From IMG/VR virus record IMGVR_UViG_3300043449_000402, positions 1-25,685 of that record: a DNA stretch of 25,685 nucleotides. One strand, given 5' to 3'. Below the pieces are notes generated by a model. That model did no database searches, was not told the origin of the DNA, and saw only the letters and a list, made by a program, of their open reading frames with translations. The first letter of the stretch is position 1. Every line of letters starts with the position of its first letter. The stretch is from a virus. Below, piece by piece: positions 2,803 to 17,972 of this stretch. Made by a program: the position numbers and the translations under genes.

Positions 2803-2820
2803 TTCTTCTTCGTGTTTGTG

Positions 2821-3318
2821 TTATTTCTTTGACTTCTTGTTCACTTCTTTCGCCGCTGTCTTGACTTCCGGCGCTATTTCTTCAACGCTTTCAACGACAG
2901 TTGTCGTCTTCTTGCGTGAACTTGAACCGGCTTCGATGTCTTTTTTCCAATCTTCCGGAAAGACTTCAAAATGTTTGATCATCGTGTTGTTTTCTTTCAA
3001 GACTTCGCGCGCGACGTCGTCGGAAAGATTGTCGTTTGTCAGAACGACAGACAATCGACTGAAATAGAATTGAACGTTGTTCTTGAATTGATACTTTTTC
3101 GCTGTCATTGTTTTTCCGTTTGTGTTGTTTTCGACAAATTGCTTCAACCTTCGCAACGACAACAAGACTTCGTTCGGACAGCCGTCACAACCGGCGCTTG
3201 TCTTGAAGATTTCTTCGTGTAATGATACGAAAGTTGACTTGACTTCGCTGTCAAGAATGATCGCGTCAACAGTTGCAAAGGAAAGAAACGCTTGAACTTT
3301 TTCAACTTGTTCTTTCAT
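2821..3318 (-). CDS. Unknown virion-module protein with charged C-terminus
   Basis: A 165-residue protein starting MKEQVEKVQAFLS. Residues about 40-60 carry a small Cys motif (SAGCDGCPNEVLLSL) and the centre has an aromatic stretch (YQFKNNVQFYFSRLS). The last 35 residues are Lys/Glu/Ser/Thr-rich and probably disordered. It sits between a hairpin terminator and the portal gene, with its stop 18 nt before the portal ATG. A structural or assembly role is likely from position only. I do not recognise a family with certainty. Confidence 0.6.
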   Translation of the reverse strand: MKEQVEKVQAFLSFATVDAIILDSEVKSTFVSLHEEIFKTSAGCDGCPNEVLLSLRRLKQFVENNTNGKTMTAKKYQFKNNVQFYFSRLSVVLTNDNLSDDVAREVLKENNTMIKHFEVFPEDWKKDIEAGSSSRKKTTTVVESVEEIAPEVKTAAKEVNKKSKK

Positions 3319-3335
3319 GTCGCTAATTTAAGAAA

Positions 3336-3361
3336 ACAAGCCGACTGAAAAGCCGGCTTGT
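3336..3361 (-). terminator. Hairpin terminator after the capsid/tube genes
   Basis: An 8-bp perfect inverted repeat (ACAAGCCG/CGGCTTGT) with a 10-nt loop lies in the 86-nt gap between the tail-tube candidate and the next gene. On the minus-strand transcript the hairpin is followed by TTTTCTTAAATT, giving a classic intrinsic terminator shape. The other strand also has a T-rich flank (CTTTCTTTTTG), so it could act in both directions. Only 17 nt separate it from the next ATG, leaving no room for a promoter, so partial read-through must supply the portal genes. Confidence 0.6.
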
Positions 3362-3404
3362 CTTTCTTTTTGTGAATTGCGATCACCTATTCAAGCCGTT
3401 CGAA

Positions 3405-4250
3405 TTAAGGTGCGGCGACAAGTAACGAAGCGACAAGCGTTTCGGTGTTCGCGGCGTTCGTATCGAACAACAGACACGGAAGTTTCGCTTCGCGCGCGTA
3501 TTCCGCCGTCTTCAACGTGACACTGAAAGCGCCGAGCGTTTCCGTATCGTTCGAAGTCCGTTCGATTGCGTTTCCTTTCAATCCACTTCCCGCGCCGAAG
3601 ACTTCGTATTTCGTCGAACTGTCGCTTGAAGTGAAATTGTTTTCGATGATCGCGACGAAGTTTCCGTCTTTCATCTTCGCAAGTTGCGTCCGCGTTGCGG
3701 CGTCAATCTTGAAGACAAGAAACTTCAATTCGTGTTCGAACTGATTGACATACGTTCCGGCGATCATTGTCACTTTCGGTTCTGTCGATTGAAGTTGTCC
3801 TTCAACTTTGAAGAACTTCTTCCCTTGTTTCATGTTGATGTCAGTGATCAAGTGTGCGTTCGTTCCGGAATAGACGATTGAAGAAATATCGTCTTTGTTC
3901 GCGATCAAGAAGTTCGCGACAACGCCGGAAGTCAAGTCGTTCGGACACGGAATCGTGATGTCGGCGTCGATTGCGACGCATCCCATGAAAGCGACGTTCG
4001 GTTCAAGAAACCGGAACGCGCGCCGTTCGCTAAACTTGAAGCGCGAAGCAATCGAAACGCTGAAAGCAAGCGCCGTGATCAACGCGCTGATTTGAACGAC
4101 GTTCGAAAGTACATTCGCATCGCCGACAGTTGTCGCGTCGCCGCCGGTGGCGACAGCGCTTGCAATCGCAAGCGAAAAGATCGCGCTGATAAGAAACGAA
4201 AGAACGACACGCGCCTTTCGAATGTTGTTGTTTGACAAGAAGTTTTTCAT
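3405..4250 (-). CDS. Putative major tail tube protein with hydrophobic N-terminal extension
   Basis: A 281-residue protein. Residues about 88-281 follow a pattern I associate with tail-tube proteins of Bacteroidota phages: DITIPCPN near the domain start, then a short NKDDISSIVYSG segment, LITDINMKQGKKFFKVEG, FEHELKFLVFKID, IIENN, then KYEVFGAGSGLK, SNDTETLGAFSVTLKT and a KLPCLLFDT close. Ahead of this lie two hydrophobic helices, residues about 15-35 and 51-70, unusual for a tube subunit. The ATG at 4250 has an A-rich leader and lies 36 nt after the capsid gene; the internal Met89 lacks such a leader, so the long form is favoured. A terminator follows. Alternatives are a decoration or other virion protein. 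Confidence 0.55.
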   Translation of the reverse strand: MKNFLSNNNIRKARVVLSFLISAIFSLAIASAVATGGDATTVGDANVLSNVVQISALITALAFSVSIASRFKFSERRAFRFLEPNVAFMGCVAIDADITIPCPNDLTSGVVANFLIANKDDISSIVYSGTNAHLITDINMKQGKKFFKVEGQLQSTEPKVTMIAGTYVNQFEHELKFLVFKIDAATRTQLAKMKDGNFVAIIENNFTSSDSSTKYEVFGAGSGLKGNAIERTSNDTETLGAFSVTLKTAEYAREAKLPCLLFDTNAANTETLVASLLVAAP

Positions 4251-4286
4251 GTTCTGTTTTGTTTTGATTGTTTGACTTCTTGTTTT

Positions 4287-5381
4287 TCAGTACAACGCTT
4301 GAATCATGTTGTCAAGACCTACTTTCGCGTCCATCTTCACAAGGTAGTCGGCGTACATTTTCGCGTCGTCTTGTGAATACCAAACTTGAAGACCGTCAAG
4401 CGCGCCGACGCTTTCAGTTCCGATCATTAAGTTTTCGCGGTGCGTCAAGATTGCGCGGTGCGGAAGTGTCGTCGCGACGTTTGCGCTTGTTGTTCCAATG
4501 TACGAACGAAGCGTTCTGTCCCAAATTGATATCGGAACAATTTCGATTCCGTTTGAATACAGTTTCAACATTCCGTCTTCAACACGCTGATACGAAGCGT
4601 CGATTGAACCGACTGATTTTCTTTCGCGTTCGTACTGATCGGCGATTGATTGCGTTGACAGAATCACAAGTTCGTTGCGCGGCATTGAACGAAGACGCAA
4701 GTCAGCGCCGAACCAAAGATTGTCAAGCGCTTTCGTGATCACTTGATTCGTCACGTCGGCGGAAGTGAACGCTTGCGCGGCGAAAGTTGCGCCGGTGTTT
4801 CGCGTTGTCAAAGTTGTGTCACTTGTGCGACGATTTCCGTCGGCGGCGACGATTGCGAACGCTTGTTTCCAAAGTCCGTCAATCGCGTTGAAGAACTTCA
4901 ATTCACCGGCGACAAGATTGTTGTTTGTTCCGGCGGCGATTGCAGTGTCGCCGAACCATGCGTGACGTTGAAGCGTTTCTTGAATCATGTCAGACAGTTG
5001 CATCGCGATGAACATTCCGATTTCAGTTCCGGCAAGATCGGGCTTGTCAGTTCCTTCTTTCAACATCCAAGCGGTGAAAGAAGCGTCGAACGTGTCGAAA
5101 CATTCCGCGAAACGATCGCCGATTTTCTTCGGTGACCAAGTTTTGTTAATTGTCGCGGAAGACAACGTCGTGTTCGCTGTCGTGTCGCAATTCGAACGAA
5201 CGTAACCGGAAAGACCGGCGTGACGTTTGAACGCGATTAGTTGCGCGTCGGATTTGATACCTTCGACGATTTGCATGATTGACGTCACGTCGGGGCGTTG
5301 ATAGAAACCTTCGAACAACGTCTTCGACATTTCTTTGACGACGTCCGGTGTAACGGAAGGAAGTCCGGTGATGATTGGCAT
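4287..5381 (-). CDS. Major capsid protein (HK97-fold type)
   Basis: A 364-residue protein in the usual size range for an unprocessed HK97-fold capsid subunit. It follows the protease/scaffold gene and has the richest A-tract leader in the window, both expected of the most abundant virion protein. Features include an N-terminal helical part, the KTWSPKKIGDRFAECFDTFD segment, a helix with MQLSDMIQETLQRHAWFGDT (residues about 126-145), and a C-terminal beta-rich portion with RAILTHRENLMIGTES and LDGLQVWYSQDDAKMYADYL, a common layout of the P-domain and A-domain end in Bacteroidota phage capsids. There is no clear cleavage site and no delta-domain coiled coil at the N-terminus; scaffolding is probably provided by the preceding gene. 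Confidence 0.8.
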   Translation of the reverse strand: MPIITGLPSVTPDVVKEMSKTLFEGFYQRPDVTSIMQIVEGIKSDAQLIAFKRHAGLSGYVRSNCDTTANTTLSSATINKTWSPKKIGDRFAECFDTFDASFTAWMLKEGTDKPDLAGTEIGMFIAMQLSDMIQETLQRHAWFGDTAIAAGTNNNLVAGELKFFNAIDGLWKQAFAIVAADGNRRTSDTTLTTRNTGATFAAQAFTSADVTNQVITKALDNLWFGADLRLRSMPRNELVILSTQSIADQYERERKSVGSIDASYQRVEDGMLKLYSNGIEIVPISIWDRTLRSYIGTTSANVATTLPHRAILTHRENLMIGTESVGALDGLQVWYSQDDAKMYADYLVKMDAKVGLDNMIQALY

Positions 5382-5423
5382 GATCTTGTTTTTTTATTTT
5401 TTGTTTGACTGTTTTTTTTTTGA
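5382..5423 (-). promoter_or_regulatory. A-rich leader of the major capsid gene
   Basis: The 42 nt between the protease stop and the capsid ATG read on the minus strand as a run of ten A, then ACAGTC, then AAACAAAAAATAAAAAAAC before the ATG. There is no purine Shine-Dalgarno core. Ribosomes of Bacteroidota depend little on Shine-Dalgarno pairing and prefer A-rich unstructured leaders, so this is read as a strong translation initiation region. Confidence 0.5.
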
Positions 5424-6011
5424 TTATTTCTTGCGACGAATCTTGTCGAATTTCGCGGCGATTTGATCGGCTTGAATTTCGTTTTCTGTCTTCGCGTTGT
5501 TTTTGTTTTGATTGAAATTCGCTTGTGGCGAAGGCGGAACGAAGTTCACTTTCAGCGTCTTCAAGTGATTTGTGACAGTGTCAAGTGTATTGATCAACTG
5601 ATCGCGTTCGTTTGTCACGCTTGAAAGATTTGTGATCTTGTCTTCAAGCGATTGAAGTTTCGCTTTCAACGATTCGTTTTCTTTCTTCAAGTTTTCGATT
5701 TCTTCGTCGCTTGAAGTTTCGGCGCTTGCTTCTTTCACTTCCGTGATCACGCCGCCGGCTGTCACAATCACTGTTCCGTCTTCAAGCGTGTGTTCGCCGT
5801 CCGGCGCGCTTGAACCGTCTTCAACAAGTGTGACAGTGTCGCCAACAGCGATCTTGTCGCCTTGCATTTCGATGTTTAATTCTTTGCCGTCGGCTGTCTT
5901 GACAACAGACGCGACCGGTGAATCTTGTGTGTTCACCGGCATTCCAAGCCGACGAAGTTCGTTGAAAGCATTCGCGACGATTGACGCCGCTGTCTTGATG
6001 TTCTTTTTCAT
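5424..6011 (-). CDS. Possible separate scaffold protein from internal in-frame start
   Basis: Within the protease gene, ATG 6011 (MKKNIKTAAS) is preceded by an A/CAA-rich stretch (AAACAAACAAGAACAACAAA then TTGAACAA) that looks like the leaders of independent genes in this window. Initiation here would give a 195-residue protein with only the beta domain, coiled coil and basic tail. Lambda C/Nu3 is the established precedent for a scaffold made from an internal start in the protease gene. The leader also encodes a Gln/Lys-rich linker, so the resemblance could be fortuitous. Confidence 0.4.
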   Translation of the reverse strand: MKKNIKTAASIVANAFNELRRLGMPVNTQDSPVASVVKTADGKELNIEMQGDKIAVGDTVTLVEDGSSAPDGEHTLEDGTVIVTAGGVITEVKEASAETSSDEEIENLKKENESLKAKLQSLEDKITNLSSVTNERDQLINTLDTVTNHLKTLKVNFVPPSPQANFNQNKNNAKTENEIQADQIAAKFDKIRRKK

Positions 6012-6578
6012 TTGTTCAATTTGTTGTTCTTGTTTGTTTTTGATTGCTTGAACCGGATCAACAACAGCCGTCGCGAAGTTCAAAGAAAGAACTTGATCAA
6101 TCGGAAGCGGCTTGTCTTCTTTCATTATTTCAAGAAGCGCGTTCGCGTCGCTTCCGGTGTATCGGTTGTAAAAATCCGCAAGTTTGACTTCTTCTTGACG
6201 AAGTTCGTCGGCGCTTCGTTGAAGATCGTCCGCCGTTCCGAAGTAGCCGTTTGAAGGCGGATGAATCAAGAAGACAGTGTTCCGCGTGACTTCGCGTTTC
6301 TTCGCAATCAAGAAGATCACTGTTGCGGCGCTTGCGACTGTCCCTTCGGCTTTCGTGACGAACGGCTTGCCGACACTTGACAAGAAATCAAAAATCGCGT
6401 ATGCTTCATAAAGCGCGCCGCCGACGCTGTTGATGTGAAGAACAATTTCTTCAACGTCTTTGTCAAGTTTTTCAATTTGATTCTTGACAGTTGCGACACT
6501 TATCACACCCCAATCTTCCGCGTCACTTCCGTGAAACGGAACGATTTCACCGTACAAATAGACGTGTCCTTGTTTCAT
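5424..6578 (-). CDS. ClpP-type prohead protease fused to scaffold domain
   Basis: A 384-residue protein. Residues 1-175 are a ClpP/S49-like serine protease: HINSVGG (48-54), catalytic Ser83 in GTVASAATV, His106 in FLIHPPS and a probable Asp155 in MKEDKPLP, close to the AVVDPV end of the fold. Residues about 213-270 form a small Gly/Asp-rich beta domain, 273-325 a coiled coil (EIENLKKENESLKAKL) and the tail is basic (IRRKK). This is the protease plus scaffold arrangement, where the coiled coil guides capsid assembly and the protease then clears it. Met190 (position 6011) is a convincing internal start. The gene lies directly before the major capsid gene. Confidence 0.82.
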   Translation of the reverse strand: MKQGHVYLYGEIVPFHGSDAEDWGVISVATVKNQIEKLDKDVEEIVLHINSVGGALYEAYAIFDFLSSVGKPFVTKAEGTVASAATVIFLIAKKREVTRNTVFLIHPPSNGYFGTADDLQRSADELRQEEVKLADFYNRYTGSDANALLEIMKEDKPLPIDQVLSLNFATAVVDPVQAIKNKQEQQIEQMKKNIKTAASIVANAFNELRRLGMPVNTQDSPVASVVKTADGKELNIEMQGDKIAVGDTVTLVEDGSSAPDGEHTLEDGTVIVTAGGVITEVKEASAETSSDEEIENLKKENESLKAKLQSLEDKITNLSSVTNERDQLINTLDTVTNHLKTLKVNFVPPSPQANFNQNKNNAKTENEIQADQIAAKFDKIRRKK

Positions 6579-6584
6579 TCGTTA

Positions 6585-6614
6585 CAAATGTAGATTTGTT
6601 TTCAGTCGTTCAAG
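6585..6614 (-). promoter_or_regulatory. Candidate Bacteroidota-type promoter before the protease gene
   Basis: The minus strand carries TACATTTG at 6592-6585, an exact match to the Bacteroides -7 consensus TAnnTTTG, and CTTG at 6614-6611, one mismatch from the -33 box TTTG, with 18 nt between them. Transcription would start within a few bases of the ATG at 6578, giving an almost leaderless message. It lies in the 31-nt gap between the small HTH-like gene and the protease gene, a sensible place for extra expression of capsid genes. Single short matches are weak evidence. Confidence 0.3.
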
Positions 6615-6867
6615 TTGCCGATTGTTGCAAGTTCGAAAGCATGATCTTTCGCGCACGATAGACTGTCGTGACTTCAACCTTGAATCGTTCCGCGACATTC
6701 GCCGTGACAATCGTTTTCGGAACGTTCGGCTTGCGACGAACTTCTTCTTCGAACTGTTCTGTCATTTCGAAATATACAACGGCTTTCGAACCAATCAAGC
6801 CGGCGCGAACAAGATTCGTCAAGACACCTTGATCACGAAGTTCTTTCAACAAATCAAAGATTCGCAC
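6610..6867 (-). CDS. Small HTH-like protein after the tape measure gene
   Basis: The protein-like part of this frame begins around VRIFDLLKELRDQGVLTNLV and runs to the stop at 6610; a GTG at 6867 gives 85 residues and a 14-nt overlap with the tape measure stop. The open frame extends to 7062, but that part reads as Ser/Arg-rich shadow of the tape measure gene, so it was not used. The C-terminal third (AERFKVEVTTVYRARKIML) looks like the recognition half of a helix-turn-helix. It lies in the +1 frame relative to the tape measure gene. Function is unknown; possibilities are a small DNA-binding protein or a tail accessory. The start is uncertain, and ATG 6765 would give a much shorter protein. 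Confidence 0.5.
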   Translation of the reverse strand: MRIFDLLKELRDQGVLTNLVRAGLIGSKAVVYFEMTEQFEEEVRRKPNVPKTIVTANVAERFKVEVTTVYRARKIMLSNLQQSAT

Positions 6868-9800
6868 GACTTTCGACGATTTGAACGCGTTGTGAAACAG
6901 TGTTGATGTCTTCAACAGTGACAACCGGCGACGGCATTGAAGCGACAGCCGTCGCGATTCCTTGTGCAAGAACATCGCTGTCGAAGATCGGCGCGCTGAT
7001 TGTCGAAGACGTGAATCCGCCGTCGGCGAACGGACGAACGCCGGTTCGATTCCATCTTTCAAGCGCTGAAAAGAAAGCCGGTTCTTGTCGAAGAACGCTG
7101 TTTCGAATCACAAGTTCCGTTCCGGCTTCGCCGATCAAGCCTATCGACGGACGCGAAAACATTCCGCCGTTCGCGAATGTTCCGACGTTTGTCGGCGAAT
7201 AGTCGTCAACGACGTTGAACAGCGAATCGGTTGAAGAAGTCAATCCGCCGTCGGCGAACTTTTGTGCAAGAACTTTCGCGACACCTATTCCGGCGCGAAT
7301 GTAAGCCGCTGTCGATTGCGCCGCGTATGTCGCCGCGCCCGCGCCGCCGGCGGTGACAGCGTTCAACGGATTCAAAGAAGCGTACAAAGCAATCGCGGAA
7401 AGTTCTTTGTTCAAGTTCACAAGAATTTCGGCGACTGATATTGCTTTTTGTGCGATTGCAAACTTTCTTTTTGAAGAAGCGGCTTCCGCGTCAATTCGCG
7501 CGACTTCTTTGTTGTATTCTTCTTGCGTGATTTTCTGATCGTCAAGCGATTGTTTCAACGCGTCTTTGCTTTGATCGAAACGCGCTTGTTCATTTGACGA
7601 CAGTTGTCCAAGCGTGTCGCCGATGAAAGCGGAAACGTCAAGAAAGTTTTGTGTCGAAATTTCAAGAAGTTCTTGTTCACGCTTCAACGCTTCGTCTGTA
7701 TTCGCGACGCGCTTCGTGTTGTTGGCGACTTGATTGTCAAGACGAAGTTGTTGAAGTCCGTTCACAAGATTCGTGATCGTCGCTTGTGTTTCGACTTCCG
7801 TCTTCGTTTCGCGATCATTGAAATCTTTGTTCAACGCCGTGATTCCGTCGTTGTATTCCTTTTCACTGATCTTCTTGTCGGCAAGTTGTTTGTCAAGCGC
7901 CGCTTTCGAAGTGTCAAAGAACTTCTTGTCTTCGGCTTGTCGCGCGCCTTGTGTTTGAAGCGCGACGTTCAATTCATCTTGAAGACGACGTTCTTTGATC
8001 TTGAACATTTCGTTTTCGAATTGTTGTTGTGTGATCAACTGATTCGACAACGACAGACGAAGCGCGTCTTCTTCCGCTTTGTACTTCGAATTTATTTCGC
8101 CTTGTTGAATTGACGCGTTGTTTTTGATAATGTCAAGACGTTCTTTCGCCGACAAGTCAGCGTATTTCTTCTCGATGTCAACAATTTTCAACGCGCTTTC
8201 TGTCGCGATTGCGGCGCGCAAGTCTTCTTCTTCTTTCGAAGTCCCTTTGATCGCGTCAAGTTTGCGACGAACAGCCGACAGTTCAATCGCAATTTCACGC
8301 GAACGTCCGTCAAGAATACGCGCGTTTCGAATGTCTTCCGTCTGTTGAAGAAGATTGTTTCGCGCGTCCGTTGCGTTCTTGTCAATTTCAAGAAGTTTTG
8401 TTTGATAGTCCGATTCAATCTTCAAGCGTTCCGCCGCCGACAAGTCACTTGCAAGAAGCGCCGCTTGTCGTTCTTTCGCCGCAATTTCTTTTCGAAGTTC
8501 AACCGTCGCCTTTCCTTCAAGTTCAAGTTGTTTCAAGTTGTTGTTCAAGATTCCGACGCGCGCGCTGATTTCTTCTTGTTGCGCCGCTTTCAAAAGTTTC
8601 GATCGTTCGGCTTGATCGTTCGCGTCTTTGTTTTTGAACTGATCTTGAAGTTCCATCAACTTGACTTGTGCGTCGATCGCCTTTTGTGAATCTTCGTCGC
8701 GAAGTGTCTTGCTTTTTTCAAGCGCCTTGTTTCTGTCAAGAATCACATTGACTTCTTCTTGTTGGAACTTGATTTGTTCTTGCAAGATTTGCTTTTCTTT
8801 TTCGCTTGCTTTCTTTGAAGCGTCAAGCCTTTCGGCTGTTGTCTTTGTCTTGTCTTGTTCAATCTTGCGAAGATTGCCGGCTTCAAGCGCAAGTTGTTTT
8901 TGTGTCAAGATTGAATCACGTCGCGCGTCTTCAAGTTCTTGTTCACGCTTCTTCAAATCGACAGCGCCTTTCGCCGCTTCTTTCGCGTCACTGAAAAGAT
9001 TCTTGAAACCGGAAACAACGTTGTCAAAACTTATCTTCTTGATTGCTTCGTCGAAGTTCGTGAACAGTTCAACGATCACGCCGCCGACTTGCGCGACAGC
9101 GCCGATGATCACGTCGAAGACAGCCGACACGCCGGCGAACGCTTGTTCAAGTTTTTCAGCGCCTTCTTCCGTCTTCGTGAAATACGCGACAAGCGCGCCA
9201 ATCGCCGCGACAATCGCAAGAACAATCGCGCCGATTCCGCTTGCAATCATTGCGACGCGAACTTTCTTGAACGCGCCCGAACCTTTGTCGCCGAACTTGT
9301 CACTTGCATCGCCCAAAGTTTCAAGACCTTCGGACACTGTTTCTGTCGTTGTTGACACGCCTTCAACGCCGGAAGTGAAAGTTGAAAATGTTCCGCTTGC
9401 GTCGTTCGTGACAGAAATCCAATTTGAAAAAGAATCAATCGCGCCGTTCACGCTGTCGCTGATTCCTTTCGTCGTATCGACGACAGCCGACGTGACTGAT
9501 TTGAAACCTTGAACGACGTTTCGAACATTGCCAATCGCGCCGCCGAACAAGCCGGTTTGTTCGAACGCTTCTTTGATTGATTCCGCGTAGTTGCCGACGT
9601 TCGTTCTTCCGTCTTTGATTTCTTGATCGAAAGCAATGATTGCTTCTTTCGCTTCGCGAACTTGTTCCGCCGCCTTCAAGTATTCTTCCGTCAATTCGAT
9701 TGTTCCGTCGGCGTTCTGTTTCAACGTGCCGGCAAGAAGTTTCAAGTTCGTTTGTGCGATCTGTTGTTGACGAAGAAGTTGTTCATACGAACCGGCGTTC

Positions 9801-10069
9801 GCCGCGTTCGCTTTGTTGATCAAGTCAAGTTGTTTGTTGTAATTCTTTTGTTCTGTTGTCAACTGTCGAAGATCGCTGTTCAACAAGACAAGTTCTTTTC
9901 GAAGTTTTCCTTCCGTCTTTGTGTCACCGGCTTTCACGGCGTCGTCAAGTTTCTTGCGCGTGTCAACGATATTCTTGTTCAAGTTCTCAATGTCTTTTTG
10001 AGTGTCAAGAATATCTTTCGCGATCTTCGCACGATCAAGCGAAACTTCAAGAATGATGTTTTTTGCCAT
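6854..10069 (-). CDS. Tail tape measure protein
   Basis: At 1071 residues this is the longest gene here. Long coiled coil covers residues 1-155, followed by a Gly/Ser/Thr-rich segment, two hydrophobic segments (about 272-297, MIASGIGAIVLAIVAAIGAL, and 317-336) and a second very long coiled coil rich in Lys, Glu, Gln and Ala. The C-terminus has the FADGG/FANGG and IGLIGEAGTELVI pattern typical of tape measure proteins. It sets tail length and is thought to help DNA cross the host membrane; at about 0.15 nm per residue the tail would be near 160 nm. The gene starts 8 nt after the distal tail gene, and unlike most phages it follows rather than precedes distal tail genes. Confidence 0.9.
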   Translation of the reverse strand: MAKNIILEVSLDRAKIAKDILDTQKDIENLNKNIVDTRKKLDDAVKAGDTKTEGKLRKELVLLNSDLRQLTTEQKNYNKQLDLINKANAANAGSYEQLLRQQQIAQTNLKLLAGTLKQNADGTIELTEEYLKAAEQVREAKEAIIAFDQEIKDGRTNVGNYAESIKEAFEQTGLFGGAIGNVRNVVQGFKSVTSAVVDTTKGISDSVNGAIDSFSNWISVTNDASGTFSTFTSGVEGVSTTTETVSEGLETLGDASDKFGDKGSGAFKKVRVAMIASGIGAIVLAIVAAIGALVAYFTKTEEGAEKLEQAFAGVSAVFDVIIGAVAQVGGVIVELFTNFDEAIKKISFDNVVSGFKNLFSDAKEAAKGAVDLKKREQELEDARRDSILTQKQLALEAGNLRKIEQDKTKTTAERLDASKKASEKEKQILQEQIKFQQEEVNVILDRNKALEKSKTLRDEDSQKAIDAQVKLMELQDQFKNKDANDQAERSKLLKAAQQEEISARVGILNNNLKQLELEGKATVELRKEIAAKERQAALLASDLSAAERLKIESDYQTKLLEIDKNATDARNNLLQQTEDIRNARILDGRSREIAIELSAVRRKLDAIKGTSKEEEDLRAAIATESALKIVDIEKKYADLSAKERLDIIKNNASIQQGEINSKYKAEEDALRLSLSNQLITQQQFENEMFKIKERRLQDELNVALQTQGARQAEDKKFFDTSKAALDKQLADKKISEKEYNDGITALNKDFNDRETKTEVETQATITNLVNGLQQLRLDNQVANNTKRVANTDEALKREQELLEISTQNFLDVSAFIGDTLGQLSSNEQARFDQSKDALKQSLDDQKITQEEYNKEVARIDAEAASSKRKFAIAQKAISVAEILVNLNKELSAIALYASLNPLNAVTAGGAGAATYAAQSTAAYIRAGIGVAKVLAQKFADGGLTSSTDSLFNVVDDYSPTNVGTFANGGMFSRPSIGLIGEAGTELVIRNSVLRQEPAFFSALERWNRTGVRPFADGGFTSSTISAPIFDSDVLAQGIATAVASMPSPVVTVEDINTVSQRVQIVESRANL

Positions 10070-10077
10070 GTCTATTT

Positions 10078-12297
10078 TTAAGCGATTCGAACAAGTTCAA
10101 CTTTGCAAGATTTGCCGTCAATCCAATTTGAAATTTTGTTGACGTAGAAATACGCGGCGAATTGACGGAAGTACACCGGAACAGCGAAGTCAAAGTTCGC
10201 GACGTCTGTCGCCGTCAACAACAGTTCAATCGTGACAATCTTCGCGCGTTGAAGTGAATCAATCAATTCAAGATAGTTTTCTTCAATCAACGAATTGTTG
10301 AAGCCAAGACTTGACGCTTCGTTTCCGTCGATAAAATATGTCTTGAAGTATTCTTTTGTTGTGACGCTGTTCCAAAGATTGTTGTTTTGATCGTACACGT
10401 TGAACTGAAAGTCGGAAGAAGAAGCGTCAACGATATTTTTGTAAGCATACAAAACGCGCGGCTTCGGTTTCAATGTATCACCGTTGAAGTCTTTGAAAAG
10501 TATTTCAGACATTGAAAGACCTTCACAAGAAAAAGTTTGTTCGCTTGCGGCGAACGGAAGCGTGATCACGTCTTTCGAAGAAGACAAGTTTTGATCGTCA
10601 ATCGCGAAAAATGAATCGCCGTATTCCGGCGCGACGTTTTCGTCTTCAAGATATTTCATCTTGTTTGTTTGACCGTATTCGTTCAAGCGAAACTTCAAGT
10701 TGAACGTGTCGTCAACAATTTTGTCAGACCAATCACGCGCGATCGTTCGATTTGAAACGACTTCTTTGAATTGAACAAAGCGAATGTTTTTCGCTTGCGC
10801 GTCCGGAATCAAGATCAAGCCGAACATTTGTGCGAACGCTTTCAAGAAGTTCTTCATTGACAAGTTCGGCAAGTTTCCGGCAAGATCAATCACGCCGGCT
10901 TCGTGCGTTGCTGTCGATTGCACAAGACCGAATTGAACGGAATCACTTTTCAACTTGACTTCAAAAGTTGTGTTTTCAGTGAATCCGTATTCATATTGAT
11001 TCGGATATGAAAAAGACAGCACTGAAAGAAAGTTGTCTTCAAGTGTTATCCAAAGCGGTTCATCTTTGAAAAGAAAAGTTTCAACTTCAAGTTTGAAGTC
11101 GTATTCAAAATAAGTGTTGTTTTGATCAACATTATCAAGACACGGAACAAGAACTTGATTGTTTGAAATAACACCGTTGAAACGCGACGCTTTCACGAAC
11201 CAATAACTTACACCGGCTAAGACGTCGCCCGTTGCGCGATGAAAAACTTTTCCGCGAACTGTCACAACATACTTTCCGGCGACGCTTGCGCGAAAGATTG
11301 TTCGCGGATATGTCGGAACTTGCGGAAGACCTTGCATCAACATAAAAGATTCCGGCGGATAGTATGTCGGCGAAAGTTGATTGTTGACAAGACTGAAAGA
11401 CAACATTGAATTGTTGTCGCAAGTTCCGTTATCAATTCCGAAAGTGTAAGCGCTTGAAGCAATTCCGGCGAAAGGTGTTGTGACGAAGTTTGTCGGATCG
11501 TTTGATTCCGGCGGAACAAGCGGCTGAAATAAGTCCGGAAGATTTCTTGCATATAAATCGTTGACAATCGAAACAAGAACAAGTTCGTTTTGAAGTGTCA
11601 TTTTCGCGTAGCCGAAACACTTGATAAACTGATCACTGTATTTCAATTTTTGTTCAACGATCGGAAGAAATAATCTTTCAAGACGACTGTCATTGAAGAT
11701 ACTTCCGTCGAAAGTATATTCGCCGAACGTGAAGATTGCTTCGATGATCTTGCGAAAAGAAACAGCCGGTCGATTGTGATCATTCGCGCGAATCACGCGA
11801 TTGTTGTCGTTGATGAATCCGGTTTGATACAACGGCAATATCACGTCGGCTGTCGCCGCCGCCGTCCAAAGTTGAAACAACGAAGTCCAACGATTGTCAA
11901 TGAATCGCGGAAGATTGACAGTTGTGAAATCAATGTCGGCAAGATTCAAGCCGTCAATCTTCTTGAAGAAGTCCGTCAATCCGCTGTAAACTGAAAGACG
12001 ATATTTCTTTTCCGCTTCTTCAATGATCGCGATTCCGTCACTGATCACTTCGATTCCGCTTGCGACAACCTTCGCTTTGATTTGTCGATACGGCAAGAAT
12101 GTTCCGCTGAAAACTTGTTCCGACGCTTCAACGATTCGACGATTGTTGTCAGTGATCGGAAGCGTGAACGATTGCGTGAAATTCGCTTGACGATCTTGAA
12201 GTTCGGCGATGTCGTTCGCTTGAATCGTCAACGCGATCTTCGTGTCGTCGTCAAGATCAACACGCTGTTCGTTCAAGAACAAGATTTGTTCTGTCAT
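10078..12297 (-). CDS. Distal tail/baseplate-hub-like protein
   Basis: A 739-residue protein whose N-terminus (LTIQANDIAELQDRQANFTQ, then FTLPITDNNRRI) has the pattern I recognise from large tail proteins of Bacteroidota siphoviruses: a domain that states a small ordered beta structure, followed by long beta-rich parts. Near residues 480-520 is a helical NLSMKNFLKAFAQMFGLI segment followed by KNIRFVQFKEV, often seen in tail hub proteins. It probably forms part of the tail tip between tube and fibres. No enzymatic motif is visible. Neighbours are the tape measure gene downstream and another large tail protein 2 nt upstream, supporting a shared tail-tip complex. Confidence 0.6.
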   Translation of the reverse strand: MTEQILFLNEQRVDLDDDTKIALTIQANDIAELQDRQANFTQSFTLPITDNNRRIVEASEQVFSGTFLPYRQIKAKVVASGIEVISDGIAIIEEAEKKYRLSVYSGLTDFFKKIDGLNLADIDFTTVNLPRFIDNRWTSLFQLWTAAATADVILPLYQTGFINDNNRVIRANDHNRPAVSFRKIIEAIFTFGEYTFDGSIFNDSRLERLFLPIVEQKLKYSDQFIKCFGYAKMTLQNELVLVSIVNDLYARNLPDLFQPLVPPESNDPTNFVTTPFAGIASSAYTFGIDNGTCDNNSMLSFSLVNNQLSPTYYPPESFMLMQGLPQVPTYPRTIFRASVAGKYVVTVRGKVFHRATGDVLAGVSYWFVKASRFNGVISNNQVLVPCLDNVDQNNTYFEYDFKLEVETFLFKDEPLWITLEDNFLSVLSFSYPNQYEYGFTENTTFEVKLKSDSVQFGLVQSTATHEAGVIDLAGNLPNLSMKNFLKAFAQMFGLILIPDAQAKNIRFVQFKEVVSNRTIARDWSDKIVDDTFNLKFRLNEYGQTNKMKYLEDENVAPEYGDSFFAIDDQNLSSSKDVITLPFAASEQTFSCEGLSMSEILFKDFNGDTLKPKPRVLYAYKNIVDASSSDFQFNVYDQNNNLWNSVTTKEYFKTYFIDGNEASSLGFNNSLIEENYLELIDSLQRAKIVTIELLLTATDVANFDFAVPVYFRQFAAYFYVNKISNWIDGKSCKVELVRIA

Positions 12298-12299
12298 TG

Positions 12300-13841
12300 T
12301 CAGTTCTGTATTGTGTAATAAGCCGGAAGTTCAACTTGTATTTCGAACTCTATTGTGTCGGCTGTCGTGAAATGTTTCAACGATTTCGGAATCGGACGAA
12401 CAGAAAGCCAAGCGCGTTCCGGTTCTGTCGCAAGTTTCGACTGATCGACCAACAACAACACGTTCGGCGATTGATAGATTGTTCTGATTCCGTTGAAGTC
12501 TTCAAGTGAAACGACGCCGCCGAGCGAAAGAACTTTTGATTGATTCGCTTGAAAGATTGTCTTTCGACGATTCGACACTTCAAGATCGTCACCTTCGTCG
12601 ATGAAAGTTCCGTCTTGTGAAGATTGATATTCGACTTCTTGTTTGTTTTCGAACAGCCAATAAGAAAAGCCGCCTTTCGAATTTCGCCAACAAAGATAGA
12701 TCGGCGACGTTCCGCAAGGTCGAACGATCTTGACGAACTTGTGTTCTGTCACGTCTTGTCCGGTTGCGATTGCCGGCGAAGAAACATTTTGCGAATAGCC
12801 GGCTTCGACGTAACCTTCGACGGCGTATCGTTGCGCGACTACGTTTGAAATTCGAAGCCAAACTTCGACGACGCTTGTGTTCGCATACGGCGTCGCGTTC
12901 GCTGATTCTTGAAGCGTCAAACGATAAACGCCGTCAACGTCAAAGAATTGTGTCAAGTCTGTTGACGTTGTCGAAATCACGGCGTTTTGTTCGTTGCGCT
13001 TTGTTTCGTGTGCGTTCAACGATCGCGCGATTTCGCCGGTGTTGATGTATGAAAGTGAAAACGGATATCCGACAAAGTACGTCGGACGCTCAAAGTCACA
13101 CAAAAACTTCGCGCGTTGAACAAGAATCGTGTCGTAATTGTTCACGTTCAAGTTGAACGGCGTGAAGTCACACAAGTTTTGTCCGTAGTCTTCAAGAAGA
13201 TACTTCGTCGCGTCGATGAAAAAGTATTTCGTCTTGTCGTTCAATTCGACGTTGTTTGAATCACGATAAACTTCGCGAAACGAAAATTCAAAACTTCCGT
13301 AGCAAGCCGGATCGCGCCAAGAAAGAACGTCGTATTCGAACAAGTTTTCTTTCGACACAAAGTTGTTCAAGAAATTTTGAGCGTCGAATTTTGCGACGCC
13401 TTGCGTGTTCGGAGTGATTCGCGCCGTTCCGAAAGACACGTCGTCTTGATTGCCGATTGCGTTCAATCCGCGCAATTTGATTTCGATAAAATAATTGTTT
13501 CGCTTCAACAAGTTCAAGAATCCGCTTGTGATGTTCGGATCGAAAGACGCGTCAATTTCAATCACTTGAAAGAAGAACGCCGTTTGTGACGACAGTACAT
13601 TGAACACGCCGTCAAGCGCGCTGAAATACACTTGTTCACCTTGCGCGATTTGAAGCGCGTCGGGATGTTGAAAAAGACTGATTGAAAACGCGATGTTTCC
13701 GTTCAAGTTTACAACGCTTGAAACAACGATGTCTTGTCGAAGAAATTCGAACAAGTACGGATGACGCGAACAATTCCAACGACTGAACCGATCGTCGTAT
13801 TTCTTGTGAAAGCGTTCCGGACGCTTCGTGATTGTGATCAT
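12300..13841 (-). CDS. Large distal tail protein (beta-rich)
   Basis: A 513-residue protein starting MITITKRPERFHK; its ATG overlaps the stop of the preceding gene as ATGA. The opening reads like tail-tip proteins of Bacteroidota phages, with PYLFEFLRQDIVVSSV and a run of beta strands with repeated F/Y-x-V/I patterns, GFSYWLFENKQEVEY, and a C-terminus rich in aromatic and Ser residues. No coiled coil, membrane segment or catalytic residues are evident. Position between the neck proteins and the hub-like protein suggests a baseplate or tail-tip component that might carry receptor-binding parts. The assignment is from context and character only. Confidence 0.55.
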   Translation of the reverse strand: MITITKRPERFHKKYDDRFSRWNCSRHPYLFEFLRQDIVVSSVVNLNGNIAFSISLFQHPDALQIAQGEQVYFSALDGVFNVLSSQTAFFFQVIEIDASFDPNITSGFLNLLKRNNYFIEIKLRGLNAIGNQDDVSFGTARITPNTQGVAKFDAQNFLNNFVSKENLFEYDVLSWRDPACYGSFEFSFREVYRDSNNVELNDKTKYFFIDATKYLLEDYGQNLCDFTPFNLNVNNYDTILVQRAKFLCDFERPTYFVGYPFSLSYINTGEIARSLNAHETKRNEQNAVISTTSTDLTQFFDVDGVYRLTLQESANATPYANTSVVEVWLRISNVVAQRYAVEGYVEAGYSQNVSSPAIATGQDVTEHKFVKIVRPCGTSPIYLCWRNSKGGFSYWLFENKQEVEYQSSQDGTFIDEGDDLEVSNRRKTIFQANQSKVLSLGGVVSLEDFNGIRTIYQSPNVLLLVDQSKLATEPERAWLSVRPIPKSLKHFTTADTIEFEIQVELPAYYTIQN

Positions 13842-14326
13842 GTTGTTTTCAATTTATACACTTTCGAAGAAACTTCAAAGAAGAAGTCGTCTGTCAAGTC
13901 GGCGATCAACGATTCAATTCTTTCTTCCGTTGTCAACGACTTCGCAATGTCACGAAATTTATTTTCGCGCCAATTCTTTGTTCCGCTTTCGGCGATCTTG
14001 CGACGAATAGCGAAAATGATTCCGGCGTCTTCGTCGATGTCTTGAATGATTCCGCGCGCGATCGCCCAATTTGCAATTCGTTCGAACGGCGGAAGACCGC
14101 CTTCGCCGCGTCCGTCTTCAAGAAAAGTGTTTCCGCGTTGATTGACGCCGAACGCGCGTCCGCCTTCAATGATCAACTTTTCAGTTGACGGCGTGACTTC
14201 CGTTCGCATCGTGACGCTGTCGTATGTTTCGCCCGTCGCGACGGCGTTTTCTGAAAGCATTCGCGCAAGAAGTTCGCCGATAAAGTTTTCGCCGAACTGT
14301 TCAAGTCGTTCGATCGTCAAAGACAT
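13838..14326 (-). CDS. HK97 gp10-like tail completion/neck protein
   Basis: A 162-residue protein with an N-terminal helix (LEQFGENFIGELLARML), ATGETYDSVTMRTEV, a Gly-rich hairpin (GGRAFGVNQRG), then GGLPPFERIANWAIARGI and a loop leading to FAIRRKIAESGT. This order (helix, T-G-x-x-x-x-S strand, then the P-x-x-x-I-x-x-W-A helix and the A-x-R-R-K-I-x-x-x-G helix) is characteristic of HK97 gp10-type tail-completion proteins, which join tail to head. It overlaps the preceding gene by 10 nt and the next by ATGA. A confident role as neck component, with moderate certainty about the exact ring. Confidence 0.65.
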   Translation of the reverse strand: MSLTIERLEQFGENFIGELLARMLSENAVATGETYDSVTMRTEVTPSTEKLIIEGGRAFGVNQRGNTFLEDGRGEGGLPPFERIANWAIARGIIQDIDEDAGIIFAIRRKIAESGTKNWRENKFRDIAKSLTTEERIESLIADLTDDFFFEVSSKVYKLKTT

Positions 14327-14757
14327 TGATAGGCGATTTCTTCTTTGATTGCTATTGTGAAAGAAAAGCCGAAGCCGGCAAGATTCGCGTCACCTTTGTG
14401 AATCAATTCGACGCGACGAACTTCGCCGATTCCTTTGTTCCGGCTGTCGCGACTGATATTCGTGATGAATCGTTGAAACACCGGCGTCAATTCGAACAAG
14501 ATTGTTTCGAACGCTGTTCCGTCTTCGTCGGCGTCGAAGTCAATAGGCTTGCAAAGTTCGCCTATCACAAGATACTTCGTTGACAGTGTGTGAAAGTTCA
14601 ACGTGTCCGTCGGACGTATGTCGTGAATCCATACGCGCGGAAAGTGTGTGACGTCGTCGATGTTGTCGTGCCACTTCGCGCCGCGCCCGAACTTCGCGAC
14701 GCCCGTCGTTGTTTCAGCGTTTTCACGCAAGATCAAGTCGATTGTTCGTCTGTTCAT
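14317..14757 (-). CDS. Putative tail terminator/minor neck protein
   Basis: A 146-residue protein with FPRVWIHDIRPTD, YLVIGELCKPIDFDADEDGT, FITNISRDSRNKGIGEVRRV and ELIHKGDANLAGFGFSFTIA. The alternating strands with a central F-[IE]-L-T-P-V-F helix-like part resemble tail-terminator and minor tail proteins that cap the tube at the head end. Overlap with the chaperone extension (ATGA) and with the HK97 gp10-like gene (10 nt) places it in the neck group. Family known to me only by pattern, so the ring identity is inferred from order and length. Confidence 0.5.
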   Translation of the reverse strand: MNRRTIDLILRENAETTTGVAKFGRGAKWHDNIDDVTHFPRVWIHDIRPTDTLNFHTLSTKYLVIGELCKPIDFDADEDGTAFETILFELTPVFQRFITNISRDSRNKGIGEVRRVELIHKGDANLAGFGFSFTIAIKEEIAYQCL

Positions 14758-14987
14758 TTTCGTCGCGTTGCTTTCTGTTTGTCTTGAAGTATTCGATTCA
14801 ATTTCTTTTGATATTGCGCTTCAAGCGCTGTTCGTTGAAGCGTCAACAGCGCTGTCGCGTAGTCGATATGAAACGCTTCGTCCGGCGTGATTGTGTACGT
14901 CTTCGCGATCGCGTACAACACGTTGAACTGTTTGAACACCTTGAATCGTTCGATTCCGGCTTGCGTTTCTTCGTGTTCGTGTTTCAC
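14754..14987 (-). CDS. Tail assembly chaperone extension (-1 frame partner)
   Basis: This frame can open at GTG 14987, overlapping the stop of the upstream gene (GTGA) and giving 77 residues, but it stays open without a stop for at least 55 nt farther back, past a run of ten T. It lies in the -1 frame relative to the upstream gene. The content is a compact helical domain (FNVLYAIAKTYTITPDEAFH, then ALLTLQRTALEAQYQKKLNR) with a basic tail, as in C-terminal extensions of tail assembly chaperones. The likely product is therefore a fusion made by frameshift at the T10 run, with free translation from GTG as an alternative. Confidence 0.65.
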   Translation of the reverse strand: MKHEHEETQAGIERFKVFKQFNVLYAIAKTYTITPDEAFHIDYATALLTLQRTALEAQYQKKLNRILQDKQKATRRK

Positions 14988-15571
14988 GCTGATTGTCGCG
15001 TTTTCAACTTTTTGTTGTTGATGTAACCAATCAAAAAAAAAACAGTTTCCGGAATCATTGTCACGACTGTCGATTCAAGAACAAGTTCTTGAACGGCTTC
15101 GACGTTTTCAAGAATCCACTTGTTTTCATCGTTCAATTTTGGCGCGTAGTAACACGCGACAACCGGCGCGACGATTTCTGAAATATGCGTTTTGTTTTCG
15201 ATTGCTTTTTCAAGAACTTGTTCCAAGTACAATTTTTGTCCAAGTCGTTCGCGCTTCGGATCAACAATCGCGTTGACTTCTTTCGAACCGATCTTGATCT
15301 TGTCAGCGCGCTTGACAGCGAACAAGTCAATGTCTTTTTCGACGAACGTCAACGCCGGAAGAACTTCGTTTGTGAAACTTGAACAATCAAAGTTCAACAG
15401 CGTGTCGAAGTTGATTCCGGTGAATATCGAAATCAAGCGCGCGTTCGCGAAGTTGTCGGCTTTTTCGATTTCGTCTTTGTGTCGATTCAAGTCACGATAC
15501 TGTCGAACAGTTATTTCAGACCACTTCGTCGGAAGTGTGTACGGATTGCCGTTGATAAGAATCGGAATCAT
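14984..15571 (-). CDS. Tail assembly chaperone, 0-frame product
   Basis: A 195-residue protein from ATG 15571 (MIPILINGNPYTLPTKW). An in-frame extension to 15673 reads through the preceding gene in another frame and lacks a suitable leader, so the ATG with its ACAACAACACAACAACACA leader is chosen. Residues 15-60 (WSEITVRQYRDLN, ARLISIFTGI) look like small tail assembly chaperones, which bind the tape measure protein while the tail is built. At 15042-15033 the coding strand has ten T (codons GTT TTT TTT TTG), near the 3' end; a -1 shift there gives a 272-residue fusion, like lambda gpG/gpGT. The gene lies about 5 kb from the tape measure gene rather than next to it. Confidence 0.6.
   Translation of the reverse strand: MIPILINGNPYTLPTKWSEITVRQYRDLNRHKDEIEKADNFANARLISIFTGINFDTLLNFDCSSFTNEVLPALTFVEKDIDLFAVKRADKIKIGSKEVNAIVDPKRERLGQKLYLEQVLEKAIENKTHISEIVAPVVACYYAPKLNDENKWILENVEAVQELVLESTVVTMIPETVFFLIGYINNKKLKTRQSA
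15033..15042 (-). other. T10 slippery site for -1 frameshift in the chaperone gene
   Basis: Ten consecutive T on the coding strand contain T TTT TTT in phase with the 0 frame (codons GTT TTT TTT TTG). A -1 slip here continues as FDWLHQQQKVENATISV straight into the downstream chaperone frame, without a stop. Homopolymers of this length can support ribosomal or transcriptional slippage. Confidence 0.65.
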
Positions 15572-15797
15572 TGTGTTGTGTTGTTGTGTTGTTGTCTTTG
15601 AAATCTTTGTTCCACTTTCCAAGCGGACACGAAGCGAAAGCGAAGCGAACTTTCGCCGGCATGAAACAGCCACAAAGACGAATCGTCGCGCCGTCGTGAA
15701 CTATTTCTTCGCCAATTATGAAAGTTCCGCAAGAAAGCGTCAACGATTTGAAGTGATCGCATCGTTGACACTTTTCAAGACGTTCGTCGCTTGTCAT
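15516..15797 (-). CDS. Small Cys-rich (zinc-ribbon-like) protein
   Basis: A 93-residue protein from ATG 15797 (MTSDERLEK), one base after the preceding stop; a TTG 12 nt farther back was rejected. Residues about 10-60 contain CQRC, SCG, LCGCFMPAK and a closing CPLGKW, a zinc-ribbon-like set found in small proteins beside packaging/tail genes of Bacteroidota phages. The last 30 residues are Asn/Thr/His/Ser-rich and overlap the first 56 nt of the chaperone gene, including its CAA-rich leader, so the tail may be a by-product of that leader. Metal binding is inferred from the Cys spacing; the role is unknown. Confidence 0.6.
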   Translation of the reverse strand: MTSDERLEKCQRCDHFKSLTLSCGTFIIGEEIVHDGATIRLCGCFMPAKVRFAFASCPLGKWNKDFKDNNTTTQHNDSDSYQRQSVHTSDEVV

Positions 15798-15798
15798 T

Positions 15799-15996
15799 TC
15801 ACTTTTCAACGATTGTCGCTTTCATTTCATTTCGTTTCGCGAACGCGATTGCGCCGCGCTTTGCGTGCCACTTCTTGAAGTAATTTTGTGAAACAAACTT
15901 CGCGCGATTGCTTCCGTCGGAATAGACAAGAAACTTTCCGCTTCCGTCGCTGTTTGATTTCACGAAGATAGTCACTTTTTCTTTTTTCGTTTTCAT
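15799..15996 (-). CDS. Small basic hypothetical protein
   Basis: A 65-residue protein from ATG 15996 (MKTKKEKVTIFVK). The frame stays open to 16149, but the extra part reads through the upstream gene and the ATG has a typical leader (AACAACAATCAAACACACAA). The protein is Lys/Arg-rich with beta-like FLVYSDGSNRAKFVSQNYFK in the middle and ends KATIVEK. No family recognised. It might be a small nucleic-acid-binding protein, inferred only from charge. Confidence 0.5.
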   Translation of the reverse strand: MKTKKEKVTIFVKSNSDGSGKFLVYSDGSNRAKFVSQNYFKKWHAKRGAIAFAKRNEMKATIVEK

Positions 15997-16028
15997 TCTG
16001 TTGTGTGTTTGATTGTTGTTGATTGTTG

Positions 16029-16241
16029 TCAGTTGTTTGATGTATGTTGTGACGACTTGCGTCGTTCGTTGAACAGACGATTCAATTTGTTTGTGTGCTT
16101 TTCTTTGATGAAGATTCGCTTCAACACGTCGTTCGCGATCGCGTTGCAATCGTCACAAACGGCGTCGCGATTTGTTGTCAACTGATCACAAGCGTCACAC
16201 TTGCGACGGCGCTTGAACAGCGACAAGAAAAACTTCTTCAT
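16029..16241 (-). CDS. Small CxxC-CxxC zinc-finger-like protein
   Basis: A 70-residue protein from ATG 16241 (MKKFFLSLFKRRRK); a TTG two codons earlier was rejected. Residues about 15-33 carry CDACDQLTTNRDAVCDDC, a two-CxxC zinc-ribbon spacing. The N-terminus is hydrophobic/basic, which could be an amphipathic helix, and the C-terminus is basic and Ser/Asn-rich. It lies between the large terminase (64 nt upstream) and the small basic protein (32 nt downstream). Function unknown. Confidence 0.5.
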   Translation of the reverse strand: MKKFFLSLFKRRRKCDACDQLTTNRDAVCDDCNAIANDVLKRIFIKEKHTNKLNRLFNERRKSSQHTSNN

Positions 16242-16305
16242 GTTCAATAATAAGAAAACAACGCGAATCTTCGAAACTTTTTCGCGACAGTTTTCGACAA
16301 AGTTT

Positions 16306-17490
16306 TCAAAAGTGAAACTTCGCGCCGGAAAGCCGTCGCGCTTGCGACAGCCGTCGCCACGTCGCCGCGTAGCGTGTCGCGTCGATTGCGTGATTGAAGA
16401 TGTCGATCGGCGTGTTCGTTCGCTTTCCGGACTTGTCAGTTTCGAAAGAATAGTTTCGAAGTTCTTTGATCACGTTGACGCTTCGACGCGTGACGTTGAT
16501 TCGCGCGAACTGTTTGATCACGTCGATTCCGGCGTTGACGCTTCCGCTTCCTTTGATAGCCGGCTTGATGTTCACGCCGCGATCTTCAAGTTCTTTGATT
16601 GATTTCGGTTCGCTTGAATCCGCGACGACTGTCACGCGCGGCGACAAGTCAAGCGCGACGATCAACTTGTGAATGTCAGCGTTCGTCAAGCCGGTTTGAT
16701 AGGCGACTTCGTCGATGAACAATTCGCCGTTGTGTTCGCGGACGTCAACGATTGCCGTCGGATCGTGCGTGAATCCAAAGTCAACGCCGATTGTTCGTTC
16801 GCGCGCGTCCGGAAGATCGTCAATGATATTGAAATCCGGAAAGACAAGACCTTCAAGCGTTCCGACTTCGCCGTCGCCGTACACGCGAAACCAATTCGCG
16901 AAACGCGGATTGTCGCGACGCGATTCAATTTCGTCGCGAATCCGGCTGTCAAGATATTCGTTGTCACGAAACGTCGATTTGATGAAAGCGCCGTTCTTCA
17001 TTCGCGCTTCGTCTTGAAGAAAGTCTTCGTGAATGTAGAAACTTTGAACCGGATTGAAGTCGAAGAACGTCGTGATCTTCGTTCGAATCAACAGTTGATC
17101 GACTGTTTCGCTGTCAACGTTGTTGCATTCGTTGACGAAAAGAATGTCGCGACGCGCGCCGCGAACTTTCGCTTCGTTGTCAGCGCTGAAAAACTCGATC
17201 GTTGACTTGTTGATTCGATACGTGTTGTCTGTCTTGTTGTGATCTTCGCGATTGTACGCGCCGCCGGCTTGAAGTATCTTGAAGAAGTCACGCATCGCGC
17301 CGCGCTTCAAGTGCGGCATTGATTCCGCGACGACGCTGATCAACAAGTTGTCGTTCGTCAACGCTATGAAATACAACAGTTGCAAGATTGAAAACGTCTT
17401 CGACGAAGAAGTTCCGCCTTGATTGATAATGAAACGACAGCCGTCGGCGAAAGCGACGGCGTTCTTTGTGAAGACGCTTGTTGTGTTCAT
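16306..17490 (-). CDS. terL: Terminase large subunit
   Basis: A 394-residue packaging motor from ATG 17490 (MNTTSVFTKN), overlapping the preceding stop as ATGA; a longer opening from 17553 was rejected. The ATPase has Walker A GGTSSSKT (25-32), Walker B DILFVNE (115-121, with Glu121 as catalytic carboxylate) and the coupling motif DFNP (144-147). The RNase H-like nuclease has Asp237 in GVDFGF, Asp291 in VVADSSEPKSI, and the closing DIFNHAIDATRYA (Asp363 or Asp370). It cuts and translocates concatemeric DNA through the portal. All key residues are intact and length is usual for the compact type. It stands 5' of tail genes rather than directly before the portal. Confidence 0.93.
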   Translation of the reverse strand: MNTTSVFTKNAVAFADGCRFIINQGGTSSSKTFSILQLLYFIALTNDNLLISVVAESMPHLKRGAMRDFFKILQAGGAYNREDHNKTDNTYRINKSTIEFFSADNEAKVRGARRDILFVNECNNVDSETVDQLLIRTKITTFFDFNPVQSFYIHEDFLQDEARMKNGAFIKSTFRDNEYLDSRIRDEIESRRDNPRFANWFRVYGDGEVGTLEGLVFPDFNIIDDLPDARERTIGVDFGFTHDPTAIVDVREHNGELFIDEVAYQTGLTNADIHKLIVALDLSPRVTVVADSSEPKSIKELEDRGVNIKPAIKGSGSVNAGIDVIKQFARINVTRRSVNVIKELRNYSFETDKSGKRTNTPIDIFNHAIDATRYAATWRRLSQARRLSGAKFHF

Positions 17491-17972
17491 CGCTGTTTGA
17501 ATTGCTTCAAGTCTTTCACTTTGACAGTGTACGTGTCGCAACGATACGCCCACTGTCGAACATTCAATTCGCCTTTCACAAAGAAGTCAGCGATTTCGAA
17601 GAAGTCTTTCGGACGAATGTAGCCAACAAGAAACGCTTTCTTCAACGTCTTCAAGACGTACACGAAGAAGAAGAAGTCACACTTTTGTTCGATGTTGAAC
17701 GCCGGAATGTCAATCGCGAAGTCAGACGTCGGCTTCGCGATTGACGCGCGCGTCTTGACGTCGATCTTGAATCCGTTGACGATCATGTCGAAGTCGAACG
17801 TCGAAGTGAAATCGACGGAACACGTTTGACTGAAATAGTCGAAGACGACGATTTCGCCGATCGCGCCGACGATGTTCGCTTCGCCTTCCGTGATACTGTT
17901 GTTCAACGCGCCGAAAGCGAAATGATCTTTCGCCCGTTCAAGTTGTTCGTTTGTGACGTTGACTTCAATCAT
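17487..17972 (-). CDS. PD-(D/E)XK-type nuclease
   Basis: A 161-residue protein with the restriction-endonuclease-like pattern: GAIGEIVVFDYF (Glu40 in the first helix), then STFDFDMIVNGFKIDVKTR with an acidic strand (Asp60/62) and D71-x-K73, followed by a stretch of hydrophobic strands (CDFFFFVYVL, AFLVGYI). These are the canonical elements of the fold. It overlaps the small and large terminase genes (ATGA at the large one), so it might trim DNA at packaging, resolve branches or mend ends; this is inference. Alternatives include a Holliday-junction-resolvase-like or homing-type nuclease. Confidence 0.65.
   Translation of the reverse strand: MIEVNVTNEQLERAKDHFAFGALNNSITEGEANIVGAIGEIVVFDYFSQTCSVDFTSTFDFDMIVNGFKIDVKTRASIAKPTSDFAIDIPAFNIEQKCDFFFFVYVLKTLKKAFLVGYIRPKDFFEIADFFVKGELNVRQWAYRCDTYTVKVKDLKQFKQR

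Follow-up and report, generated by a model that had tools for sequence, protein, structure and literature searches.

Does a run of ten Ts inside a phage gene fuse two reading frames into one protein and, if so, which machine slips on it and what does the product do? The locus that raises this question lies in a viral DNA of 25,685 nt (IMG/VR record IMGVR_UViG_3300043449_000402, positions 1 to 25,685; this whole stretch is referred to below as the window), in which a sequence-only reading had taken a 195-residue frame for a tail chaperone that is extended by a -1 shift at the T10 run, through either ribosomal or transcriptional slippage. A further-reaching reading, to which we give a probability of roughly 50%, concerns a whole family of phages, widespread in aquatic habitats and apparently of Bacteroidota: RNA polymerase, by programmed slippage for which at least nine Ts in a row are obligatory, would give these phages their two tail-assembly proteins, in place of the lambda-type ribosomal frameshift. 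That the T-run gene makes two products by a frame switch we regard as nearly certain.

The T10 run and its reading frames

The 0-frame open reading frame (ORF) of the gene occupies positions 14984..15571 on the minus strand, runs from an ATG to a TGA and encodes the 195-aa, G-like product; it is backed by the open reading frames, a profile match and a structure model. The slip site (15033..15042, minus strand) consists of the codons GTT TTT TTT TTG, holds an in-phase T_TTT_TTT and exceeds a length of nine Ts. From the run, the -1 frame reads FDWLHQQQKVENATISV... with no stop before 14756-14754; its continuation, FDWLHQQQKVENATISVKHEH..., ends at the TGA found there, and the fusion comes to 272 aa, of which the 93 residues counted from the slip (FDWLHQQQ...KATRRK; 14754..15035, minus strand) form the extension. 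The only separate start listed for this extension is a GTG (14985..14987, minus strand) that overlaps the 0-frame TGA (14986-14984). On all these points, coordinates, codons and translations as well as the sole GTG start, the sequence-only reading was exact.

Homopolymers of eight or more occur at two places only in the window, the T10 run and an intergenic stretch at 5412-5421, and the former is the sole T run of such length that the main genes carry on their coding strand. When codons were redrawn with the window's own usage, 0.087 coding runs of ten or more Ts were expected per window, and the chance of V-F-F-L being spelled as T10 was ~1.3% (the Phe codons of the window are TTC 269 times and TTT 118 times). 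The run is more than a chance occurrence. The open -1 stretch of 17 codons is on its own weak evidence, and the case is carried by the relatives, which keep both the run and the open -1 extension.

A search with the 195-aa protein as query yielded one distant group (loci L002-L009), in which a T10 stands near the equivalent point, in a different codon register (TCT TTT TTT TTT CGT), and the -1 frame is open. This lead extended to the Nonlabens phages P12024S and P12024L, both with T9, and from there to IMG/VR, where it gave 63 loci; those examined all have T9 or T10. The search behind these 63 loci used FFYHLGND as one pattern, and its 63/63 result is biased. As a fair test, searches were repeated with the extension domain only, by which loci are not selected for the T run. 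The relatives obtained in this way are those among the matches listed, and the sequence and cluster counts drawn from them are lower bounds. After removal of duplicates they provided at least 145 distinct junctions, every one of which passes from frame 0 to frame -1 at nine or more Ts (117 T9, 26 T10, one T11 and one T12). When both domains were recognized by profile, 235 of the 236 locus records among the matches listed switched from 0 to -1 at T9-T12 (190, 43, 1 and 1, respectively). The exception, L220:2000-2689, carries both parts in one frame (229 aa) directly after the terminase gene and without a T run; it is the only natural fusion seen among the matches listed.

At least 191 distinct junctions (162 T9, 27 T10, one T11 and one T12) were finally available and, at 70% identity, fell into 54 clusters, one of them the window. 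Among the matches listed, none of these 191 sequences has T7 or T8 at the junction, and in all of them, and all 54 clusters, the -1 extension is open past the run; the +1 frame stops within 0-8 codons of the run in 54/54 clusters. In alignments of the relatives the extension emerges as one conserved domain (LSFRxRL...KWGWY...), conservation at the protein level holds for both reading frames, and the stop of the extension shares a 4-base overlap with the next start in 29 of the 54 clusters, as it does in the window. Every T-run relative examined thus has at least nine Ts and an open -1 frame, and none has a -1 stop between run and extension, the pattern that the sequence-only reading had named as fatal to a fusion; its proposal that a frame switch joins the two parts is supported by the open junctions and by the L220 fusion alike.

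The link of the window itself to this family was examined with a profile built without it. This profile matched the first ORF of the window with E = 2e-7, mainly over the N-terminal 57 residues; weighing on the other side, the extension profile did not detect the window's own extension (E about 1.2), whose homology to the other extensions is a loose assignment by position and loose resemblance, with no significant score. No close relatives were found by a terminase-seeded search, and integrated copies are nearly absent (1/395 Bacteroidota genomes). Flavobacterium phage 6H (L247:10355-10939, minus strand) was considered as a slip-type member and rejected: it is distantly homologous in the first domain (E 3e-5), its run region reads TGT TTT TTC TAT, with no T9, and its -1 frame closes at once. 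Another -1-frame ORF of ~95 codons lies near the 0-frame stop of this phage.

One could suppose that no fusion is made at all: ribosomes would terminate at the 0-frame TGA and reinitiate at the overlapping GTG, as happens in many operons of phages, and the extension would be a protein in its own right. The overlap in the window would suit this explanation, as would the Nonlabens phages, whose stop shares bases with an ATG (TAATG) and whose annotation has a 55-aa gene at that point. The relevant stretch, however, is without an ATG in 50/54 clusters and without any ATG, GTG or TTG in 33/54, the distance from the run to the 0-frame stop is 16-79 codons, and reinitiation would account neither for the conserved run nor for the conservation of -1 coding sequence from there to the stop; with L220 as a natural fusion on the same side, we judge reinitiation to be very improbable. 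An error of sequencing or assembly at the homopolymer, or a decayed gene, deserves still less credit. Long homopolymers are indeed error-prone, but both frames are conserved as protein, and sequencing error is ruled out because the run turns up again in many assemblies made independently and in the genomes of two cultured phages.

Length of the run and the machine that slips

Seven register types were observed, all with at least nine Ts (2+6+1, 3+6+1, 2+6+2, 1+6+2, 1+9+0, 2+9+0 and 2+9+1), the commonest being xTT TTT TTT TNN, in 42 clusters. Where the first codon ends in a single T (TCT/AGT, GCT, GAT), at least two Ts always follow the two TTT codons, whereas the same is seen in 5/51 of the other clusters (Fisher p = 0.002, in a test that rests on three clusters and ignores phylogeny). 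Other runs of nine or more Ts in the cluster representatives are intergenic and mostly terminator-like, situated after a hairpin-like sequence upstream of the gene. At L107:711, L131:2474, L180:1971 and L212:1837 a hairpin-like sequence and a T9 are followed by a GTTATATATATATG-like stretch before the ATG; this arrangement recurs between terminase and gene in many relatives, and is likely to be a terminator plus promoter for the operon.

Ordinary reading of the gene would give the 195-aa protein, and slippage at T10 the 272-aa -1 fusion. In the mechanism proposed here, RNA polymerase would add one U or drop two when the T run equals or exceeds the length of the enzyme's RNA-DNA hybrid (9-10 bp); in the share of mRNAs altered in this manner, normal ribosomes would then read straight into the extension. 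Nine As or Ts are enough for efficient polymerase slippage (PMC5009743); selection against A/T runs begins at nine in many bacterial genomes, and a run of nine As or Ts whose length is conserved among homologs very likely denotes purposeful transcriptional slippage (PMC1088944). Both a coding run of about nine or more (the window has T10, and all slip-type relatives T9-T12) and a run length kept among homologs independently of register were found here, the clusters of non-standard register being few. No excess RNA folding was seen in the 75 nt downstream of the run over the 54 clusters (mean z -0.23; window z = -1.8), in a model of folds free of pseudoknots. Transcriptional slippage is favoured because the length at which it becomes efficient, nine, matches the observed minimum, no T7 or T8 appears among the matches listed, and no conserved downstream structure was seen. 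From these sequence features the slipping machine is probably RNA polymerase, and when the evidence is read jointly the balance leans to the same degree toward a frame switch made by polymerase slippage. At T9-T10 the polymerase could slip more often than the ribosome does in lambda, where the rate is roughly 1 in 30.

Ribosomal -1 frameshifting, with two tRNA-Phe slipping on U_UUU_UUU as in lambda G/GT, would yield the same two products, and although we find it clearly the less probable of the two, it remains a serious rival. A ribosomal heptamer needs seven Ts, and 3' stimulators are not obligatory for a -1 ribosomal frameshift. Several points speak for the ribosome and to that extent against the polymerase: every junction holds an in-phase T_TTT_TTT (the heptamer X_XXY_YYZ), although any run of nine or more Ts contains one automatically; the flanking Ts partly encode the conserved hydrophobic or aromatic residues V/L/I-F-F-Y/W, and lengths of nine and ten could stem from these, the run being lengthened without selection on length; and the compensation result has the narrow base given above. 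In addition, the tail chaperone systems of lambda and its relatives are ribosomal (PMC5009743). On the other hand, a ribosomal slip leaves it puzzling that no run of seven or eight appears in the 191 sequences among the matches listed, when seven would suffice, and that T losses on one side of the run are compensated on the other; no excess of downstream structure is seen over the clusters, the value of the window itself notwithstanding, and in E. coli U_UUU_UUU is far less shift-prone than A_AAA_AAG (PMC5009743). The heptamer named in the sequence-only reading is present, but its description as efficiently slippery is doubtful for bacteria; between the two kinds of slippage which that reading had left side by side, the nine-T length rule favours the transcriptional one. 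The literature searched contained nothing on the behaviour of these hosts' RNA polymerases or ribosomes on such a run, and in open-access literature no published account was found of a frameshift in this gene family or of transcriptional slippage in tail genes.

Role of the two-form protein and its gene neighbours

The short and long proteins probably act like lambda gpG and gpGT, which chaperone the tape measure protein and recruit the tail tube protein; in lambda-type systems the tape measure is bound by the short form and the tail tube protein brought in by the long one, and neither form is part of the virion. The architecture is best read as that of a G/GT-like chaperone, and by this analogy we consider a chaperone-like role likely. 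It is backed by the tail-module context, by the G/GT-like architecture and by weak matches, namely of three family members to PHROG 166, 'tail protein' (best 8e-5), and to a BFVD protein named tail assembly chaperone (E = 0.046). The AlphaFold2 model of the 0-frame ORF (pLDDT 82.5, pTM 0.75) retrieved with Foldseek 33 BFVD proteins at E <= 0.001, the Nonlabens one included, none of them with an assigned function; the model of the natural fusion in L220 was of low confidence (pLDDT 66.9, pTM 0.48).

Other results detract from a chaperone role. There was no fold match in the PDB (Foldseek best E 2.2, VIA-align Z up to 2.6; an unlisted fold is possible), no Pfam chaperone family was matched, the window proteins, scanned against PHROG and Pfam, yielded no function for the gene, and it adjoins the terminase gene, not the tape measure gene. 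The terminase large subunit is encoded at 16306..17553 (minus strand; PHROG terminase large subunit, E = 1.4e-36), and the tape measure protein, of 1071 aa, at 6854..10069 (minus strand; PHROG tail length tape measure proteins, E = 3.5e-5 and 1.3e-4), four genes and ~4.7 kb downstream of the fusion gene; the gene thus lies away from the position expected of a lambda-type G/GT chaperone, directly before the tape measure gene and after that of the tail tube. We have not filed it in the lambda-type chaperone family because this position differs and no similarity was established. The name tail chaperone used in the sequence-only reading finds support in context and architecture, but not in any chaperone family or solved fold.

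These same results lend some substance to the idea that the frame switch is real and the protein some other assembly or packaging factor in two forms, which would be compatible with either slip mechanism. The gene follows terminase not only in the window but also in L006, L220 and the Nonlabens phages, and its PHROG family, too, has no assigned function. Against this, when a siphovirus-like phage encodes in its late operon a protein of two forms, the longer with a short -1 extension, it is typically a tail assembly chaperone (Xu 2004, as cited in PMC3711429 and PMC5009743); the weak matches point to tail and chaperone proteins, and the same strand carries a tape measure gene further downstream. 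On balance another kind of factor seems unlikely, and a tail assembly chaperone remains the preferred interpretation.

The gene that follows (14317..14757, minus strand; 146 aa) begins with an ATG that overlaps the stop of the extension (ATGA). At the other end, a small Cys-rich protein (CQRCDHFKSL...GCFMPAK...CPLGKW, PHROG 13558; window 15516-15809) overlaps the start of the gene, and a similar Cys-rich ORF stands upstream of it in L006 (L006:1248-1676). The order over window positions 1483-17553 is terminase, putative chaperone, tail genes, tape measure, a Clp-like protease and further probable structural genes; unlike in lambda, the protease and later genes are placed after the tail genes. 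The second homopolymer of the window, ten As on the coding strand at 5412-5421, is part of an A-rich leader: the Clp-protease-like gene ends just ahead of it, with a stop at 5424, and the following gene has its ATG ~30 bases further on, at 5381.

Known systems and significance

Lambda gpG/gpGT, made by a -1 programmed ribosomal frameshift at a heptamer of the G_GGA_AAG type, differs from the present system in several respects: the slip site here is a run of at least nine Ts, the gene comes after terminase and four genes before the tape measure gene, and family searches revealed no sequence similarity between the two. The slippage proposed here, by RNA polymerase inside a coding sequence and with two products, is of the kind known from Thermus thermophilus dnaX, which uses a run of nine, and from Shigella mxiE/spa13. 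The dnaX slip makes a shorter product, whereas here, as in spa13 and mxiE, a longer one would be made; all of these are bacterial genes and ours is a putative phage assembly gene. Insertion sequence elements of Deinococcus and Nostoc with runs of 8-10 As (Baranov 2005, PMC1088944) share with the T-run family a run of about nine bases kept among homologs and a fusion ORF in the shifted frame, but they encode transposases instead of a tail-module protein. The gene pairs 38/39 and 40/41 of Nonlabens phages P12024S/L (PHROG 32199 and 38404) have a first ORF homologous to that of the window, a T9 in CTT TTT TTT TAT and an open -1 extension; they are annotated as two hypothetical proteins, the frameshift is unrecorded, and the PHROGs have no assigned function.

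If polymerase slippage is the true reading, the ratio of the two proteins would be set by RNA polymerase. The family offers a clean natural test of whether the conserved two-product scheme of tail chaperones can run on transcriptional instead of ribosomal slippage. It adds to the two-form proteins of phages a large group that has as yet no such annotation and whose slip rule can be read from the sequence. With that rule, at least nine Ts near the end of the gene after terminase and a -1 frame that stays open, annotations could be put right in many phages from metagenomes, as well as in the cultured Nonlabens phages, where two hypothetical proteins now stand for the pair.
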